Positions 4,685-16,049 of a stretch of DNA of 64,000 bases are shown in pieces. The DNA lies in contig JAEUSV010000031.1 in the NCBI GenBank assembly GCA_016788485.1, forward strand, positions 1-64,000, written 5' to 3'. The position numbers and the translations under genes were made by a program. How positions within the stretch are numbered: the stretch's first letter is position 1; every line of letters begins with the position of its first letter. Below the pieces are notes generated by a model. It did no database searches and was not told where the DNA came from. It was given only the letters and a program-made list of their open reading frames with translations. The stretch comes from Flavobacteriales bacterium. GTDB lineage: Bacteria; Bacteroidota; Bacteroidia; Flavobacteriales_F; PHOS-HE28.

Positions 4685-6232
4685 CTACCGGGCCGCACCG
4701 ACCTCATCGCGCACACGCATAACGGTGATCACCTCGTTGCGGTTCACCGGGTTCAGCCAGTGCACGAAGCGGTCCACGAAGCCGGGCTCGGCCTGGCCCA
4801 CAGGCTCCAGCGGACCCATGGCGCCCTCCAGCCGTGCGATGCGCCGCTGCAGGTCCTCCTGGCCGATCAGGAAGGCGTAGTTCGGTGTGCGGCCGGGGTG
4901 GCCGCGCCAGAAGGTCATGGTGCTGTCGATGTTGAAGGTGGTGTCGGGCATGTCCACCACCGTGGCCTCCCAGTGCAGGCAGTAGTACTTGGGGAGCATC
5001 GGGGGCTCATGCTCGGGGCTGTCCTCCACCACCCAGCCCTCCACATCGGGGCGGTCCTTCACCAAACGCATGGCCTCCAGCCGGCTCTGCTTGCTCGTGG
5101 TGAAGCACAGCACCACCAGCAGCAGCGTGCTCACGCCCCAGGTCCAGGCCAGGATGCCCCGCCACAGCCCTTGGTGCCGCTGCCACCAAGCGGAGGAGCG
5201 TCGTAGGCCTTCCCATGCCACGAGGCCCAAGGTGAGGTACAGGGGCACGATGGGCAGGATGAAGCGTTCCTGCTTGTTGGGGAACCACGAGTGGATGGCC
5301 ACGAAGAGCACCACGGGCAGCCATACCACCAGCGGGGCGGGGCGCCGCACGAAGCCCCACATCACCAGCAGGCCGAAGGGGGGGATGAGGAGGCCGGCCA
5401 GCAGCAGCAGGTAGTTGTACCAGGGCTGCACCCCGTAGGTGGTGGTGTTCACCAGGTTATAGCCCACGTACTCCGTGAGCTCCGCGAAGGGGCGCCCCCA
5501 CAGGAACAGGTCGATGCCTCCCTGCACCACCACCAGCGGAAGCAACAGGCCGGCGCCGTAGGCCAGGGTGCCCTTCCAGTTCCGCTGGAGCAACAAAGCG
5601 AGGCCTGGTCCCGCGGCGAAGAAGATGGTCTGGAAGCGCACGTTCATGGCCATGCCCAGCCACACCCCGGCCAGCAAGGCCTCCCGCAGGCCGGGACCGC
5701 CGCTGCCGCGCACCAGCTGCCAGGCACCGAGCATCAGGAAGGGGATGCAGGCCACCTCCACCAGGTTGCGCACGCTCAGGAACGGCATGAAGCCGAGCAG
5801 CGCCAGGAAGAGTCCCGCACGCCACGCCGTCGCCGGGTCGGAGAGGCGCAGGGCGATGCGGTAGCCCATGCGCACCACCACCAGGCTCCACACGGCATGG
5901 ATCAGGCGCACCACCACCATGCAGGCGTCGGGGTCCTTCAGACCCACCAGCAGCATCAGCTTGAAGAACACCCAGTGCAGCCCCACATAGAAGAAGCTGT
6001 GCCCGCTGGGCCGTGGTGTGCCCTCCTGGTGCCAGGGCAGCCAGTAGTTGTAGTCCGAACCGTCGGCCCAACTGCGCGCCGGTTCGGCCACCAGGAAATG
6101 GTCGTCGTGCGCGAAGTATCCCCCCGAGAAGAAGGCCGCCACCACGCGGGGCACCAGGGCGATGAGGGTGAGGCGCAGGAGCGCGCCGTGGGTGGGCTGT
6201 GCGAAGAGGCGTTGCAGCATGCCGGCCGCCAA
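4685..6232 (-). CDS. GT22 (Alg9/PIG-B-like) mannosyltransferase-like membrane protein
   Basis: This is a polytopic protein of 515 residues. It has an early luminal/periplasmic acidic motif (GGYFAHDDHFLVAEPA) where GT-C transferases place their catalytic Asp/Glu. A PNKQERFILPIVPLYL segment matches the HKEERFLFP signature of the GT22 dolichol-phosphate-mannose-type mannosyltransferases. About ten hydrophobic stretches lie between, and the C-terminal ~120 residues are soluble. It would transfer a sugar from a lipid-linked donor to a glycan or glycolipid on the outer face of the inner membrane. GT-C fold is well supported; GT22 is likely; donor and acceptor are unknown. It stands alone on the minus strand, 36 bases upstream of terC. 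Confidence 0.78.
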   Translation of the reverse strand: MAAGMLQRLFAQPTHGALLRLTLIALVPRVVAAFFSGGYFAHDDHFLVAEPARSWADGSDYNYWLPWHQEGTPRPSGHSFFYVGLHWVFFKLMLLVGLKDPDACMVVVRLIHAVWSLVVVRMGYRIALRLSDPATAWRAGLFLALLGFMPFLSVRNLVEVACIPFLMLGAWQLVRGSGGPGLREALLAGVWLGMAMNVRFQTIFFAAGPGLALLLQRNWKGTLAYGAGLLLPLVVVQGGIDLFLWGRPFAELTEYVGYNLVNTTTYGVQPWYNYLLLLAGLLIPPFGLLVMWGFVRRPAPLVVWLPVVLFVAIHSWFPNKQERFILPIVPLYLTLGLVAWEGLRRSSAWWQRHQGLWRGILAWTWGVSTLLLVVLCFTTSKQSRLEAMRLVKDRPDVEGWVVEDSPEHEPPMLPKYYCLHWEATVVDMPDTTFNIDSTMTFWRGHPGRTPNYAFLIGQEDLQRRIARLEGAMGPLEPVGQAEPGFVDRFVHWLNPVNRNEVITVMRVRDEVGAAR

Positions 6233-10058: not shown

Positions 10059-10836
10059 GGTAGATGCCGCTCGCCGTGGACTCGATCAACGACGCGGGCA
10101 GCAGCGCCTGAAGCCCCGCCGTGATGCGGTTCAACAGGCCCGGCACCACCTCGGCCCGCCCCTTGAACAGGGCATCCACCGCGCTCTTGGCCACAGGCTC
10201 AGGCGGTGTGCCGAACTTCCGCGCCAGGTCGTCCATGGCGGTCATGCCCGCCCGTTCGGTGAAGCCCGTGATCACGCTGCCGGGGCATACGCAGGTCACC
10301 TTCACACCGGTACCCTTGAGCTCCAGTCGCAGCGAGCGCGACCAGCGCAGCATGAAGGCCTTGCTGCCGCTGTACACGGCCATGCTGGCCAGCGCGTGGT
10401 AGGCCACCATGCTCGCGACGTTGAGCACCCAGGCCTCGCGCTGGGCCTTGAGGCGCGGCAGCAGGCGGTGCGTCAGCTGCACCGGTACGTCCATGTTCAG
10501 CCGCATCATGCGGTGCTGCTCGGCGAAGCCCAGCTCGTCGAAGAGGCCCCACAGGCCCTGTCCTGCGTTGTTCACCAAGGCCGTCAAGGGGCCGTCCAGG
10601 GCCTCCACCGCGTGCTCCAGCCGGTCCACCGCATCCGGGGCCAGCAGGTCCAGCGCCACCACCGACACGCGGCCGCCGTTCAGCGCTCCGGCCTCCTGCC
10701 GCAGGGTCTCCAAGGCCTGCCCGGTGCGGGCGGTGATCAGCAGGCCGAAGCCCCTGCGGGCCAGCTCGAGGGCGATGGCCCGCCCGATGCCCTGGCCGGC
10801 ACCGGTGACCAGCGCGTAACCGCGGAAGGTGCTCAT
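10036..10836 (-). CDS. short-chain dehydrogenase/reductase (SDR)
   Basis: This 266-residue classical SDR has the Rossmann motif TGAGQGIGRA at the N-terminus, the NNAG motif, the catalytic Ser in NVASMVAYHALASM, and the YSGSK catalytic Tyr-Lys pair. The PGSVITGF segment is in the usual place. It is an NAD(P)H-dependent oxidoreductase of unknown substrate; similarity to DltE/YqjQ-like SDRs is only general. The start ATG overlaps the stop of the upstream DUF4833 gene (ATGA), so translation is probably coupled in a three-gene operon with the dioxygenase-like gene. Confidence 0.9.
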   Translation of the reverse strand: MSTFRGYALVTGAGQGIGRAIALELARRGFGLLITARTGQALETLRQEAGALNGGRVSVVALDLLAPDAVDRLEHAVEALDGPLTALVNNAGQGLWGLFDELGFAEQHRMMRLNMDVPVQLTHRLLPRLKAQREAWVLNVASMVAYHALASMAVYSGSKAFMLRWSRSLRLELKGTGVKVTCVCPGSVITGFTERAGMTAMDDLARKFGTPPEPVAKSAVDALFKGRAEVVPGLLNRITAGLQALLPASLIESTASGIYLKRLPKR

Positions 10837-13892: not shown

Positions 13893-14498
13893 TCAATGGT
13901 AGGCGATGGACCGGTCGATCACGCGCACCGTCTCCGTGCGTTCCGCGCTGGGCGTGCCGTCGTCGTTCTTCGTGTCCTGCACGAAGAGGAACCGGCTGCG
14001 GTCGCCACTGCCCTCCAGCTTCACCATGTCCAGGGAGAGCTTGGCACCGGCCATCTCGATGTCGAGGCGGCGACCGGTGTAGGCCTTCCCGCCCAGCTTC
14101 AGGCTGGTGTTGCTGGGCCTGCAGTTCTTGCGGCCGAACTGCTCGATCATGCCCTCCTCGAAGTCCTTCACCTCGCCCTGACCGTCCACCTCGAACACCA
14201 TCACCACCACGTTGTTGCCGTCGAGCGTCCAGTGCTGCATGCCGGCGTTGGCGCCGTCGAACTCAAAGGCGAAGTGGCGCGGGTACTCGAAGCTGAAGCC
14301 GCCGGTGTTGAGGGTGCGCGTGGCACCCAGGCGGGCCACCACGGGGGTGCCGTTCACGTCGAAGGACTCGCCCTCGGCCACCTTGCGCGTGCTGCCCCCC
14401 ACGGTCACCTCCAGCATGGTGGGCGGCTCCACCGTAGGATCGTTCTGGGCCAGCAAGGGCAGGGGCAGGAGCAGCAGGAGCGGGGCTAGGCAGCGCAT
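13893..14498 (-). CDS. secreted protein of unknown function
   Basis: I do not recognise the family. The 201-residue product has a clear signal peptide (MRCLAPLLLLLPLPLLAQ). The mature part is beta-rich and slightly acidic, with VTVGGSTRKVAEGESFDVNG, FSFEYPRHFAFEFDGANAG and a C-terminal FLFVQDTKNDDGTPSAERTE. Its base composition matches the surrounding chromosome, unlike the AT-rich cassette that ends about 80 bases upstream. It may be cotranscribed with the DUF2459 gene. A TACCTTGC box on the minus strand lies roughly 15 bases before the ATG. Confidence 0.75.
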   Translation of the reverse strand: MRCLAPLLLLLPLPLLAQNDPTVEPPTMLEVTVGGSTRKVAEGESFDVNGTPVVARLGATRTLNTGGFSFEYPRHFAFEFDGANAGMQHWTLDGNNVVVMVFEVDGQGEVKDFEEGMIEQFGRKNCRPSNTSLKLGGKAYTGRRLDIEMAGAKLSLDMVKLEGSGDRSRFLFVQDTKNDDGTPSAERTETVRVIDRSIAYH

Positions 14499-14574
14499 GG
14501 GGTGTGTTTCATGGCAAGGTAGGGTTCAGCGGCGTTCGCCTTTGCGCCAGGGTCCCTCTGTGCCTGAGAGAAAG

Positions 14575-14706
14575 GGCTAACGTTTTGCCGCTTTGCGAAG
14601 GCGGGGATTTTCAGCACTAAACTTCATTAGATGCACAAAGCTTGAATTTAGCACTTCACTGTCATAGAAGCACGAAACCCCCGCTTTTGCAAAACGGCTG
14701 TTATGC
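14575..14706 (-). repeat. attC-like palindromic recombination site closing the gene cassette
   Basis: Read on the minus strand, this 132-base element begins with GCATAAC (14706-14700) and ends with GTTAGCC (14581-14575). Between them the arms pair imperfectly: GTTTTGC with GCAAAAC, GCGGGG with CCCCGC, and AGTGCTAAA with TTTAGTGCT-like bases near the centre. This gives one long imperfect hairpin, the size and form of an integron attC site. It starts 21 bases after the stop of the cassette gene. The core GTT trinucleotide, where IntI would cut, is at 14581-14579. Confidence 0.65.
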
Positions 14707-15365
14707 GGTCGCCATTCTTTATTTTCGTTATAGTTCTTCAATTTTCTTTACATATTTTCTGTTTTCAACTGCTACTAGGTCATACTTATTCTGTCCGACA
14801 AAAAACGCTGAATATGCCCAAGTGTTTGTCGGTTTCTTTAAATCTTCAATGTAATATTGTCCTGATACTTCAAAGTCCAACATTGCAAGTTCAAAGGGAT
14901 AAATTTTATACAATGCTTTTAATACACTTGTAAAAAAGTCCGTTATCTGTTTCGGTACTTTTGGGTTTTCAGTCCAAGTTTGATACTCTGCCCCAAAGAC
15001 CTTTTCAATTGCAGCTGTGTAAAAGCAAATGTCAAACCAATTGAATCCAGTTTCGATAGGCTCGTCTTCCCGTATATTACAAGTCATAAATGGAATCTCA
15101 AAATTGTCAAGTCTTAAAAGTCCACGGTGTTGAAAATTTTCAATGTTTGTCTCTATTGCTTTAAAGTCTTCGTCAAAAGGTCCTGAAACATTGTTAAGTG
15201 TCCAAATAAAGTCAGTGTAAAGTTTTATTGGGACGTTGTCAATACTTGGGCAAACCTGAATAGCAAGTTCATAGAAGCCACCGCATCTTAAATCTTTGTC
15301 AAGAAATATGTTTTTTTGTCCTGTCATTCTTTATTCGTTGGCTGTCGTCCTATGGTGTCGCATAA
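14581..15365 (-). mobile_element. integron-type gene cassette without a nearby integrase (CALIN-like)
   Basis: The unit runs on the minus strand from TTATGC at 15365 to the G at 14581. It contains a single AT-rich gene with a 38-base leader and ends in an attC-like palindrome. The 5' hexamer TTATGC preceded by G gives GTTATGC, the exact complement of GCATAAC that opens its own attC; in a circular cassette these two form the paired core sites. The composition is strikingly AT-rich against GC-rich surroundings on both sides. No intI is present in the window, so mobilisation must have used an integrase encoded elsewhere. Confidence 0.65.
14728..15327 (-). CDS. AT-rich cassette gene, unknown protein
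   Basis: I do not recognise this 199-residue protein. It is acidic, rich in aromatic residues, and has no signal peptide or membrane segment, so it is probably cytoplasmic. Notable stretches are MTGQKNIFLDKDLRCGGFYE, FIWTLNNVSGPFDEDF, FNWFDICFYTAAIEKVFG, and FTSVLKALYKIYPFELAMLD. Codon usage is AT-rich, unlike all other genes in the window, which indicates transfer. The ATG lies 38 bases inside the cassette boundary and the stop is 21 bases before the attC-like site, as in integron cassettes. A role in defence, toxin neutralisation or a niche trait is possible, but nothing in the sequence shows it. Confidence 0.8.
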   Translation of the reverse strand: MTGQKNIFLDKDLRCGGFYELAIQVCPSIDNVPIKLYTDFIWTLNNVSGPFDEDFKAIETNIENFQHRGLLRLDNFEIPFMTCNIREDEPIETGFNWFDICFYTAAIEKVFGAEYQTWTENPKVPKQITDFFTSVLKALYKIYPFELAMLDFEVSGQYYIEDLKKPTNTWAYSAFFVGQNKYDLVAVENRKYVKKIEEL

Positions 15366-15478
15366 CTGCGGATATACGCAACTCACCTTCGCTCTATTGC
15401 AGCCGGTGGCTCAACGGCCAATGTAGTGAGCCTTAGGTACAAAACCGTCCAGTAAGCGTTTGCTTTCGGTAGTTGCCG
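15360..15478 (-). repeat. attC-like site upstream of the cassette
   Basis: On the minus strand this 119-base stretch begins with CGGCAAC (15478-15472) and ends with GTTATGC (15366-15360). The arms pair partly: AACT with AGTT and ACGC with GCGT, with CGGA/CCGA-like bases between. It starts nine bases after the rimB-like stop codon. The pairing is weaker than in the downstream site; the terminal TTATGC belongs to the inserted cassette, so a mismatch with CGGCAAC is expected. Confidence 0.45.
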
Positions 15479-15486
15479 CAACGCAC

Positions 15487-15903
15487 CTACCCCAGCAGGT
15501 TCTTCCCGCTCACGTCCACCACGAAGCGGCCGCGGAGGAACTTGCGGCCCAGCAGCACCTGGTGCTTCATGTCGCTGCGGTCGAACAGCGTGAACTGGGT
15601 GGCCACGCTGTGCCCGTTGAGCCGCACCTTGGTGGTGATGAGCCAGCGGCGGCTGGTGTCGCCGTTGCTGCTCTTGACGGTGACCCGTTGGAAGCGCCGG
15701 AAGATCTTGGTGACGCGCCGCCCGCCCATGCGCACGGTCACCAGCAGTTCCTTGCGCCCGTCCACCGTGCGGGTGCGCACCTTCTGGAAGTGGAGCGCGC
15801 TGCGGTAGGCCCCCGTGTCGATCTTGGCCTGCACGCGCTCCACGCCCAGCCCCGGCAGGGCGATGTGCTCCAGCCGGCCGATGGTGAGCTTGCCTTTGGC
15901 CAT
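15487..15903 (-). CDS. RimB-like / ATP-dependent zinc protease family (DUF785) retropepsin-like protein
   Basis: This 138-residue protein has the DUF785 signature AKIDTGAYRSALH near residue 27; the D-T-G-A triad is that of retropepsin-like aspartic proteases. The C-terminal part has LFDRSDMKHQVLLGRKFLRGRFVVDV, also typical of the family. Members are encoded next to rimK and are proposed to trim the glutamate tails that RimK adds. Here rimK lies on the opposite strand about 2.3 kb away. The attC-like element begins nine bases after its stop. A CACCTTTG element ends four bases before the ATG on the minus strand, so the mRNA may be leaderless. Confidence 0.85.
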   Translation of the reverse strand: MAKGKLTIGRLEHIALPGLGVERVQAKIDTGAYRSALHFQKVRTRTVDGRKELLVTVRMGGRRVTKIFRRFQRVTVKSSNGDTSRRWLITTKVRLNGHSVATQFTLFDRSDMKHQVLLGRKFLRGRFVVDVSGKNLLG

Positions 15904-16049
15904 GCACCAAAGGTGCGCCCGGCGGGCCAGCCGCCCACCGATGCCCGTGCAGAGGTTTCCATGCCCGCCGGTGGAAAGCGTTAATGAACTGTTGATCGCG
16001 ACCGCGGTGCGTGCCGATCACCGATCTTCGCCACGCAGACCAACACCCC

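Follow-up and report, generated by a model that had tools for sequence, protein, structure and literature searches.

Integrons are systems that shuffle resistance genes, and attG denotes a site where lone cassettes stand. We analyzed a stretch of 64,000 nucleotides (nt), referred to here as the window, from a Flavobacteriales bacterium (assembly GCA_016788485.1, contig JAEUSV010000031.1, positions 1 to 64,000), in which a single AT-rich gene is carried by a gene cassette on the minus strand (14581..15365) with an attC-like hairpin of 132 nt at its downstream end (14575..14706, minus strand). Sequence comparison indicates that the cassette is real and suggests that it works like an integron cassette while standing outside the family served by the integron integrase, IntI. 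We regard it as highly probable that it is a mobile gene cassette belonging to an integron-like system in Bacteroidota, run by a tyrosine recombinase that lacks the insertion characteristic of IntI.

The accessible text of PMC3053210 gives attC palindromes a size range of 57-141 bp, and there the alpha-I2 helix and beta-4,5 strands of IntI contact two extrahelical bases of attC. The IntI insertion is called essential or necessary for integron recombination in the accessible parts of PMC8138268 and PMC9668308, and according to PMC3053210 it aids in reading those bases. By the default of IntegronFinder 2, as given in the accessible part of PMC9024848, a CALIN comprises two or more attC sites that lack an integrase; the 64 kb analyzed here hold one element of the hairpin class in question. 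Like a CALIN or a lone cassette at attG, the window cassette has no neighboring integrase; unlike them, it stands at an attI-like site and carries a hairpin of another class. Among the papers listed in our literature searches, which did not cover subscription papers and preprints, none describes this system.

The cassette gene (14728..15327, minus strand) encodes a 199-residue (aa) protein of unassigned function, and its open reading frame has a GC content of approximately 35% vs 63-73% in the surrounding DNA. The insert begins with G|TTATGC (15366-15360), which is complementary to the GCATAAC (14706-14700) that opens the downstream element, and extends to the G of its 3' end, G|TTAGCC. As in integrons, the 5' end of the cassette is therefore complementary to its own R''-type box (GCATAAC, 14700..14706, minus strand), here at 8 of 10 nt; the R'-type box GTTAGCC (14575..14581, minus strand) spans the cassette end and the flank. 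Each box is off at one position from the RYYYAAC / GTTRRRY consensus, and their AAC and GTT cores fit. The leader measures 38 nt and the gap between gene and downstream element 21 nt. The base composition, the complementary ends and both distances had been reported in an earlier reading made from the sequence alone (the sequence-only reading), and our analysis confirmed each of them. The 199-aa protein had no match in Pfam, NCBIfam, PADLOC or PHROGs and was absent from the plasmids, phages and viral contigs searched. Its predicted structure (pLDDT 79.5) had no match in the PDB at E <= 0.001 (best E 0.009, TM 0.31), and an Rfam scan of 14000-16000 matched nothing.

Downstream of the gene lies an imperfect inverted repeat of 24 nt (14587-14610 / 14675-14698; 83% complementary). 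Folding of 14575-14706 beat chance on the minus strand (z -2.64; 2 of 200 shuffles as good), as the hairpin proposed earlier implied, and on the plus strand (z -3.26; 0 of 200), while with looser borders z falls to -1.16 and 25 of 200 shuffles are as good. The sequence-only reading had placed a palindrome on each side of the gene. Only the downstream one stood: the upstream region (15355-15490) is no more stably folded than shuffled sequences (z -0.07) and was rejected as a second attC. Together, the hairpin, the complementary ends and the unfolded upstream region indicate that the cassette reading was right and that the second palindrome is not there.

We found that the hairpin belongs to a defined class. 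A covariance model (R1) of 18 elements, built with the window element left out, scores 14575-14706 at 99.2 bits (E 2.1e-21), in agreement with the attC-like site proposed earlier; across the 64-kb window it found no second distinct site, its other match being the same hairpin on the opposite strand. Furthermore, a recombinase-linked array of the congener G028 (L170) has two elements that each agree with the window element at 125 of 132 letters. In the 18-element structure 84.9% of cells are paired, vs 57.6% after shuffling and 34-40% after sliding; among 97 further elements (matches at E <= 1e-6 from 28 of 38 recombinase regions, described below) the figure is 88.7% vs 53.5%, in an alignment fitted to the model. 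Alignment A1 left out the window, G037 and the two window-like L170 elements, along with shorter subclasses and other near-copies; L012:8722, L168 and L167 (outlying) and L140:13800 (near-copy) were dropped between alignments A1 and A2. Unlike integron sites, the linked elements measure mostly 130-133 nt (81 of 97) and show, in the fitted alignment, a single A.C mismatch after 13 pairs (88 of 97). Besides this mismatch, the 5' arm is free of extra letters in 92 of the 97 and the 3' arm in 87; two extra letters on one arm occur in a single element, so that the IntI-type pair of extrahelical bases is not found. The innermost modeled pair is open in 47 of 95. Within the genus, 32 of 45 genomes yield R1 elements, at least 91 in all, and the window's own genome accounts for two of these. 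Since at most 75 candidates were scored per genome and filters were strict, the genus counts are lower bounds. Other hairpin sizes were also seen: an Aquimarina array (L012) contains short 68-nt hairpins (4900-4967, 10289-10356) beside long ones, which suggests that the system may have several hairpin size classes, and a 122-123-nt subclass (AACATGCGCTTGCCGCAAGCC...) occurs in several species of the genus (L082:610-731, L146:17047-17168, L173:1850-1972).

Hairpins of the 132-nt class form arrays beside a tyrosine recombinase gene. In a first set of 28 recombinase loci, which does not include the recombinase-free cassette contig L178, complete recombinases are 355-471 aa long, and a simple hairpin finder gave 29 matches on the gene's strand and 3' of it, spread over 16 loci, and 6 elsewhere; the match in L163 is at the finder threshold, and another five contigs stop no more than 170 nt from the gene. 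A second set, drawn from the phylum with a recombinase profile (best rows and some lower ones), comprised 38 regions; the 35 genomes concerned belong to other genera. Here R1 placed 132 of 139 matches 3' of the recombinase on the same strand, in 33 regions; the other seven lie in L241, L271 and L272, and in three of the five regions without a 3' match the contig ends 107-233 nt after the gene. One region (L244) shares DNA with L143, the source of one training element, and without it the counts are 124 of 131 matches and 32 of 37 regions. Within the genus, 12 of the 91 elements lie within 10 kb 3' of 23 recombinases on the same strand, where approximately 0.065 would be expected, and at this distance the opposite side and the opposite strand have none. 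The linkage extends to a Chryseobacterium plasmid (NZ_CP041688.1, L277) with the recombinase and five R1 matches 3' of it, the stretch ending inside one of them; on a second plasmid (L278) the recombinase is present with no R1 match. We also observed that assemblies frequently end 107-233 nt past the recombinase gene (L166, L169, L171, L141, L241, L243, L246), as if broken at a repeated array.

Arg, His, Arg and Tyr, which we take to be the catalytic residues, are invariant in 23 aligned recombinase rows. A patch motif specific to IntI is present in 0 of 52 linked recombinases vs 16 of 20 IntI and 0 of 9 Xer proteins, and 91-96 aa separate the two catalytic boxes (51 of 52 measurable) compared to 133 in IntI (4 of 20 measurable). 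The top NCBIfam model for the four linked recombinases scanned is NF040815 ('recomb_XerA_Arch', cut-off 220 bits), with scores of 226.2 and 224.8 over and 217.8 and 205.6 under the cut-off; TIGR02249 comes next, below its cut-off. The nearest solved structures by sequence are an XerC-like protein, IntI4 and XerA. Despite this likeness to XerA, XerC and XerD, the linked enzymes differ from them in an N-terminal extension in many members, in their linkage to cassette arrays and in a tree position apart from the nine rows labeled Xer. That tree separates the IntI rows clearly, and likewise the Xer rows. The linked family may fall in the 'integron-like' tyrosine recombinase subgroup of PMC8138268; in the accessible part of that paper, cassette arrays are not tied to the insertion-less members. 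A system that lacks both the IntI insertion and the extrahelical bases fits the contact account in the accessible text of PMC3053210.

The arrays share further features with integrons: they consist of one-gene cassettes with hairpin sites and a G|TT core, and an attachment site of the attI type lies near the recombinase gene, in cis at the linked loci. Unlike in integrons, the recombinase gene precedes the array on the array's own strand. Of 78 array cassettes, 69 have a 5' end complementary to the cassette's own R'' box at 7 of 7 positions, compared to a mean of 4.3 and a maximum of 11 among 2000 shuffles (the 78 exclude pairs separated by over 2500 nt or lacking GTT/AAC). When cassette starts are placed by this complementarity (9 of 10 letters), that of the first cassette lies 66-123 nt downstream of the recombinase gene at 30 of 39 placed loci among 47 examined. 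The boundary is sharp: between two species (L149 and L160), 698 of 700 nt are the same up to the GTT and 64 of 250 thereafter.

The window has no recombinase in cis, and its cassette follows an element that resembles an attI-type attachment site rather than a hairpin (15366..15486, minus strand). This site is homologous to that of a different cassette in the sister species G037, with a Z score of 24.5 over the 120 nt before the insertion point. The G037 cassette is likewise AT-rich, encodes a 177-aa protein, has a hairpin of its own and shares the right end AAAACGTTAGCC. The protein (L019:2040-2573) has a weak PADLOC match to HEC-02B (E 5e-4). The last 17 nt of the G037 site also occur as a string in the recombinase-linked attI of L147. 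A promoter-like TACATTGG (15418..15425, minus strand), which we take to resemble the Bacteroidota -7 motif TANNTTTG, recurs in G037 as TACCTTGG and in the recombinase-linked attI of L145, lying approximately 60 nt before the joint in both the window and L145. Upstream of the attachment site is a host gene of the zinc-protease family (PF05618; 15487..15903, minus strand), present in 38 of the 45 genus genomes. We read 29 of its 37 flanks outside the window's own genome; an element is present in G037 alone, and none of the 29 has the attachment stretch empty.

Similar sites stand apart from an intact recombinase elsewhere. In the window's own genome, contig C148 carries a broken recombinase end, an attI like that of L150 (Z 44.7), one cassette and one element; a cassette-start pattern allowing three mismatches gave 127 + 132 matches vs 91 + 88 for the control and was uninformative. 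For another 12 cassettes of the genus the start could be placed and the stretch showed no recombinase: seven have an attI with Z >= 12 (L279, L281, L283, L290, L292, L296, L297) and five fall below. Two of these sites, L279 and L281 in G004, match the recombinase-linked attI of the same genome (Z 44.8 and 70.9). Recombinase fragments lie upstream of elements in L280, L282 and L294. The G004 recombinase gene (L280:4575-8089) is in two pieces approximately 2 kb apart, with elements still downstream. Orphan attI sites of this kind would be served in trans or would be relics.

The 199-aa protein is absent from 97 relatives and present in seven other genomes at 58-95% identity, namely bins labeled Flavobacteriales, Cytophagales, Kapaibacterium, Ignavibacteriota and Flammeovirgaceae and the isolates Aquimarina aggregata and Flavobacterium lotistagni. 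Judged by this distribution, the cassette gene moves between hosts. Both cassette ends (GTTATGCGGCACC.. / ..CGCATAAC, or varied) are kept in L010, L012, L013 and L016 and are followed by different hairpins; L014 keeps an upstream hairpin, L011 the 5' end only and L015 neither end. In L013 the gene lies inside an array of one-gene cassettes with 131-134-nt hairpins, whose cargo includes Fic, PagL, dioxygenase and TonB_C domains. Five of the seven genomes contain another tyrosine recombinase (best piece approximately 100-120 bits).

We propose that a tyrosine recombinase without the IntI insertion would cut a folded attC-like hairpin of approximately 132 nt at CG|TT, and that the excised cassette would be joined to an attI-like site, usually approximately 100 nt after the recombinase gene. 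With attI in this position, cassettes would stack behind the recombinase in its own direction. We infer that the linked recombinase is the cutting enzyme and that single-stranded hairpins are its substrate. The attI-like site in front of the window cassette would then have lost its own recombinase or have lacked one from the start. We lean toward a broader reading, in which Bacteroidota possess a second integron-type system with an insertion-less recombinase, A.C-mismatch hairpins and, in some genomes such as G004, several dispersed attI sites; if one recombinase serves such sites in trans, lone cassettes like that of the window would be regular captures.

Several observations weigh against this account. 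The attI of the window is only moderately like recombinase-linked attI sites (best Z 6.8, with L145, and 7.4), 7 of 90 random GTT sites, a set not cleaned of true attI, reach Z 6 (highest 30.2), and its last 20 nt rank fourth with 23 ties among 1426 GTT sites. Since random GTT sites sometimes score as high, this link alone is moderate. The matches in L271 and L272 lie only on the wrong side or strand, and six loci with a recombinase (L147, L149, L151, L152, L160, L163) have no R1 match 3' of it, nor, L163 at threshold apart, a finder match. In the genus, 79 of the 91 elements are not within 10 kb of any of the 23 recombinases, and broken contigs and recombinase relics account for only some of these. 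Furthermore, the single grouping of the linked recombinases in the tree is weakly supported (45/31), and the gene relatives in L011 and L015 lack a downstream hairpin of the 132-nt class.

An ordinary integron cassette, left as a CALIN remnant and moved by canonical IntI, perhaps from IntI-bearing classes of the phylum, would explain the attC-like architecture, whose 132 nt fall inside the range in the accessible text of PMC3053210; IntI exceeds the cut-off in 105 of 395 phylum genomes, and the gene also occurs in the Kapaibacterium and Ignavibacteriota bins. However, within the class IntI is over the cut-off only in G131, and it is over the cut-off in none of the 45 genus genomes (TIGR02249), the own genome or the seven genomes that carry the gene. 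The 132-nt class lies near none of 21 IntI genes (25 stretches, most of only 1.5 kb on each side), it is linked to another recombinase, and it has one A.C mismatch in place of two extrahelical bases. We consider this origin unlikely, and the IntI-type or CALIN assignment of the sequence-only reading is not supported; its picture of a solitary cassette that has an attC-like site but no neighboring integrase holds, with all matches of the own-genome integrase search lying off the window's contig. Two IntI-scoring proteins of the own genome (C35 and C59) were rejected as integrases because they group with rows labeled Xer. In G249, G375, G190 and G394 a true IntI and the insertion-less recombinase occur together, giving two cassette systems per genome.

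It is very unlikely that the recombinase is a passenger and that hairpins and inverted ends belong to a transposon-like element with an unrelated transposase. The exact complementary run is indeed mostly 9-10 nt (64 of 78 cassettes), a departure from integrons that such an element would account for, as it would for the many solitary units away from any recombinase; yet the linkage is one-sided and same-strand, the attI is shared with a sharp boundary, and the arrays, which were not systematically searched for transposases, are ordered series of different genes. That the hairpin is a mere transcription terminator beside a vertically inherited AT-rich gene would suit one hairpin after a gene, and is hardly credible for a gene missing from the 97 relatives and up to 95% identical in other genomes, with complementary cassette ends and a different cassette at the same site in G037; the relatives' flanks also speak against it.

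An insertion-less mobile-cassette system of integron type, as we favor, would be widespread. The insertion-less enzyme adjoins cassette arrays, and its relatives are present in approximately half of the sampled genomes of a class from which IntI is almost missing. With the recombinase profile, 53 of 97 class genomes (own genome not counted) attain E <= 1e-70, with no E value between 1e-59 and 1e-69, and these rows may include recombinase relatives with another function. Arrays in a cultured Flavobacterium and on a Chryseobacterium plasmid make the question testable. If the recombinase works as proposed, it would represent a second way of recombining folded DNA and a test of the actual requirements of strand choice, and would open up a large pool of mobile genes that searches based on IntI may overlook.
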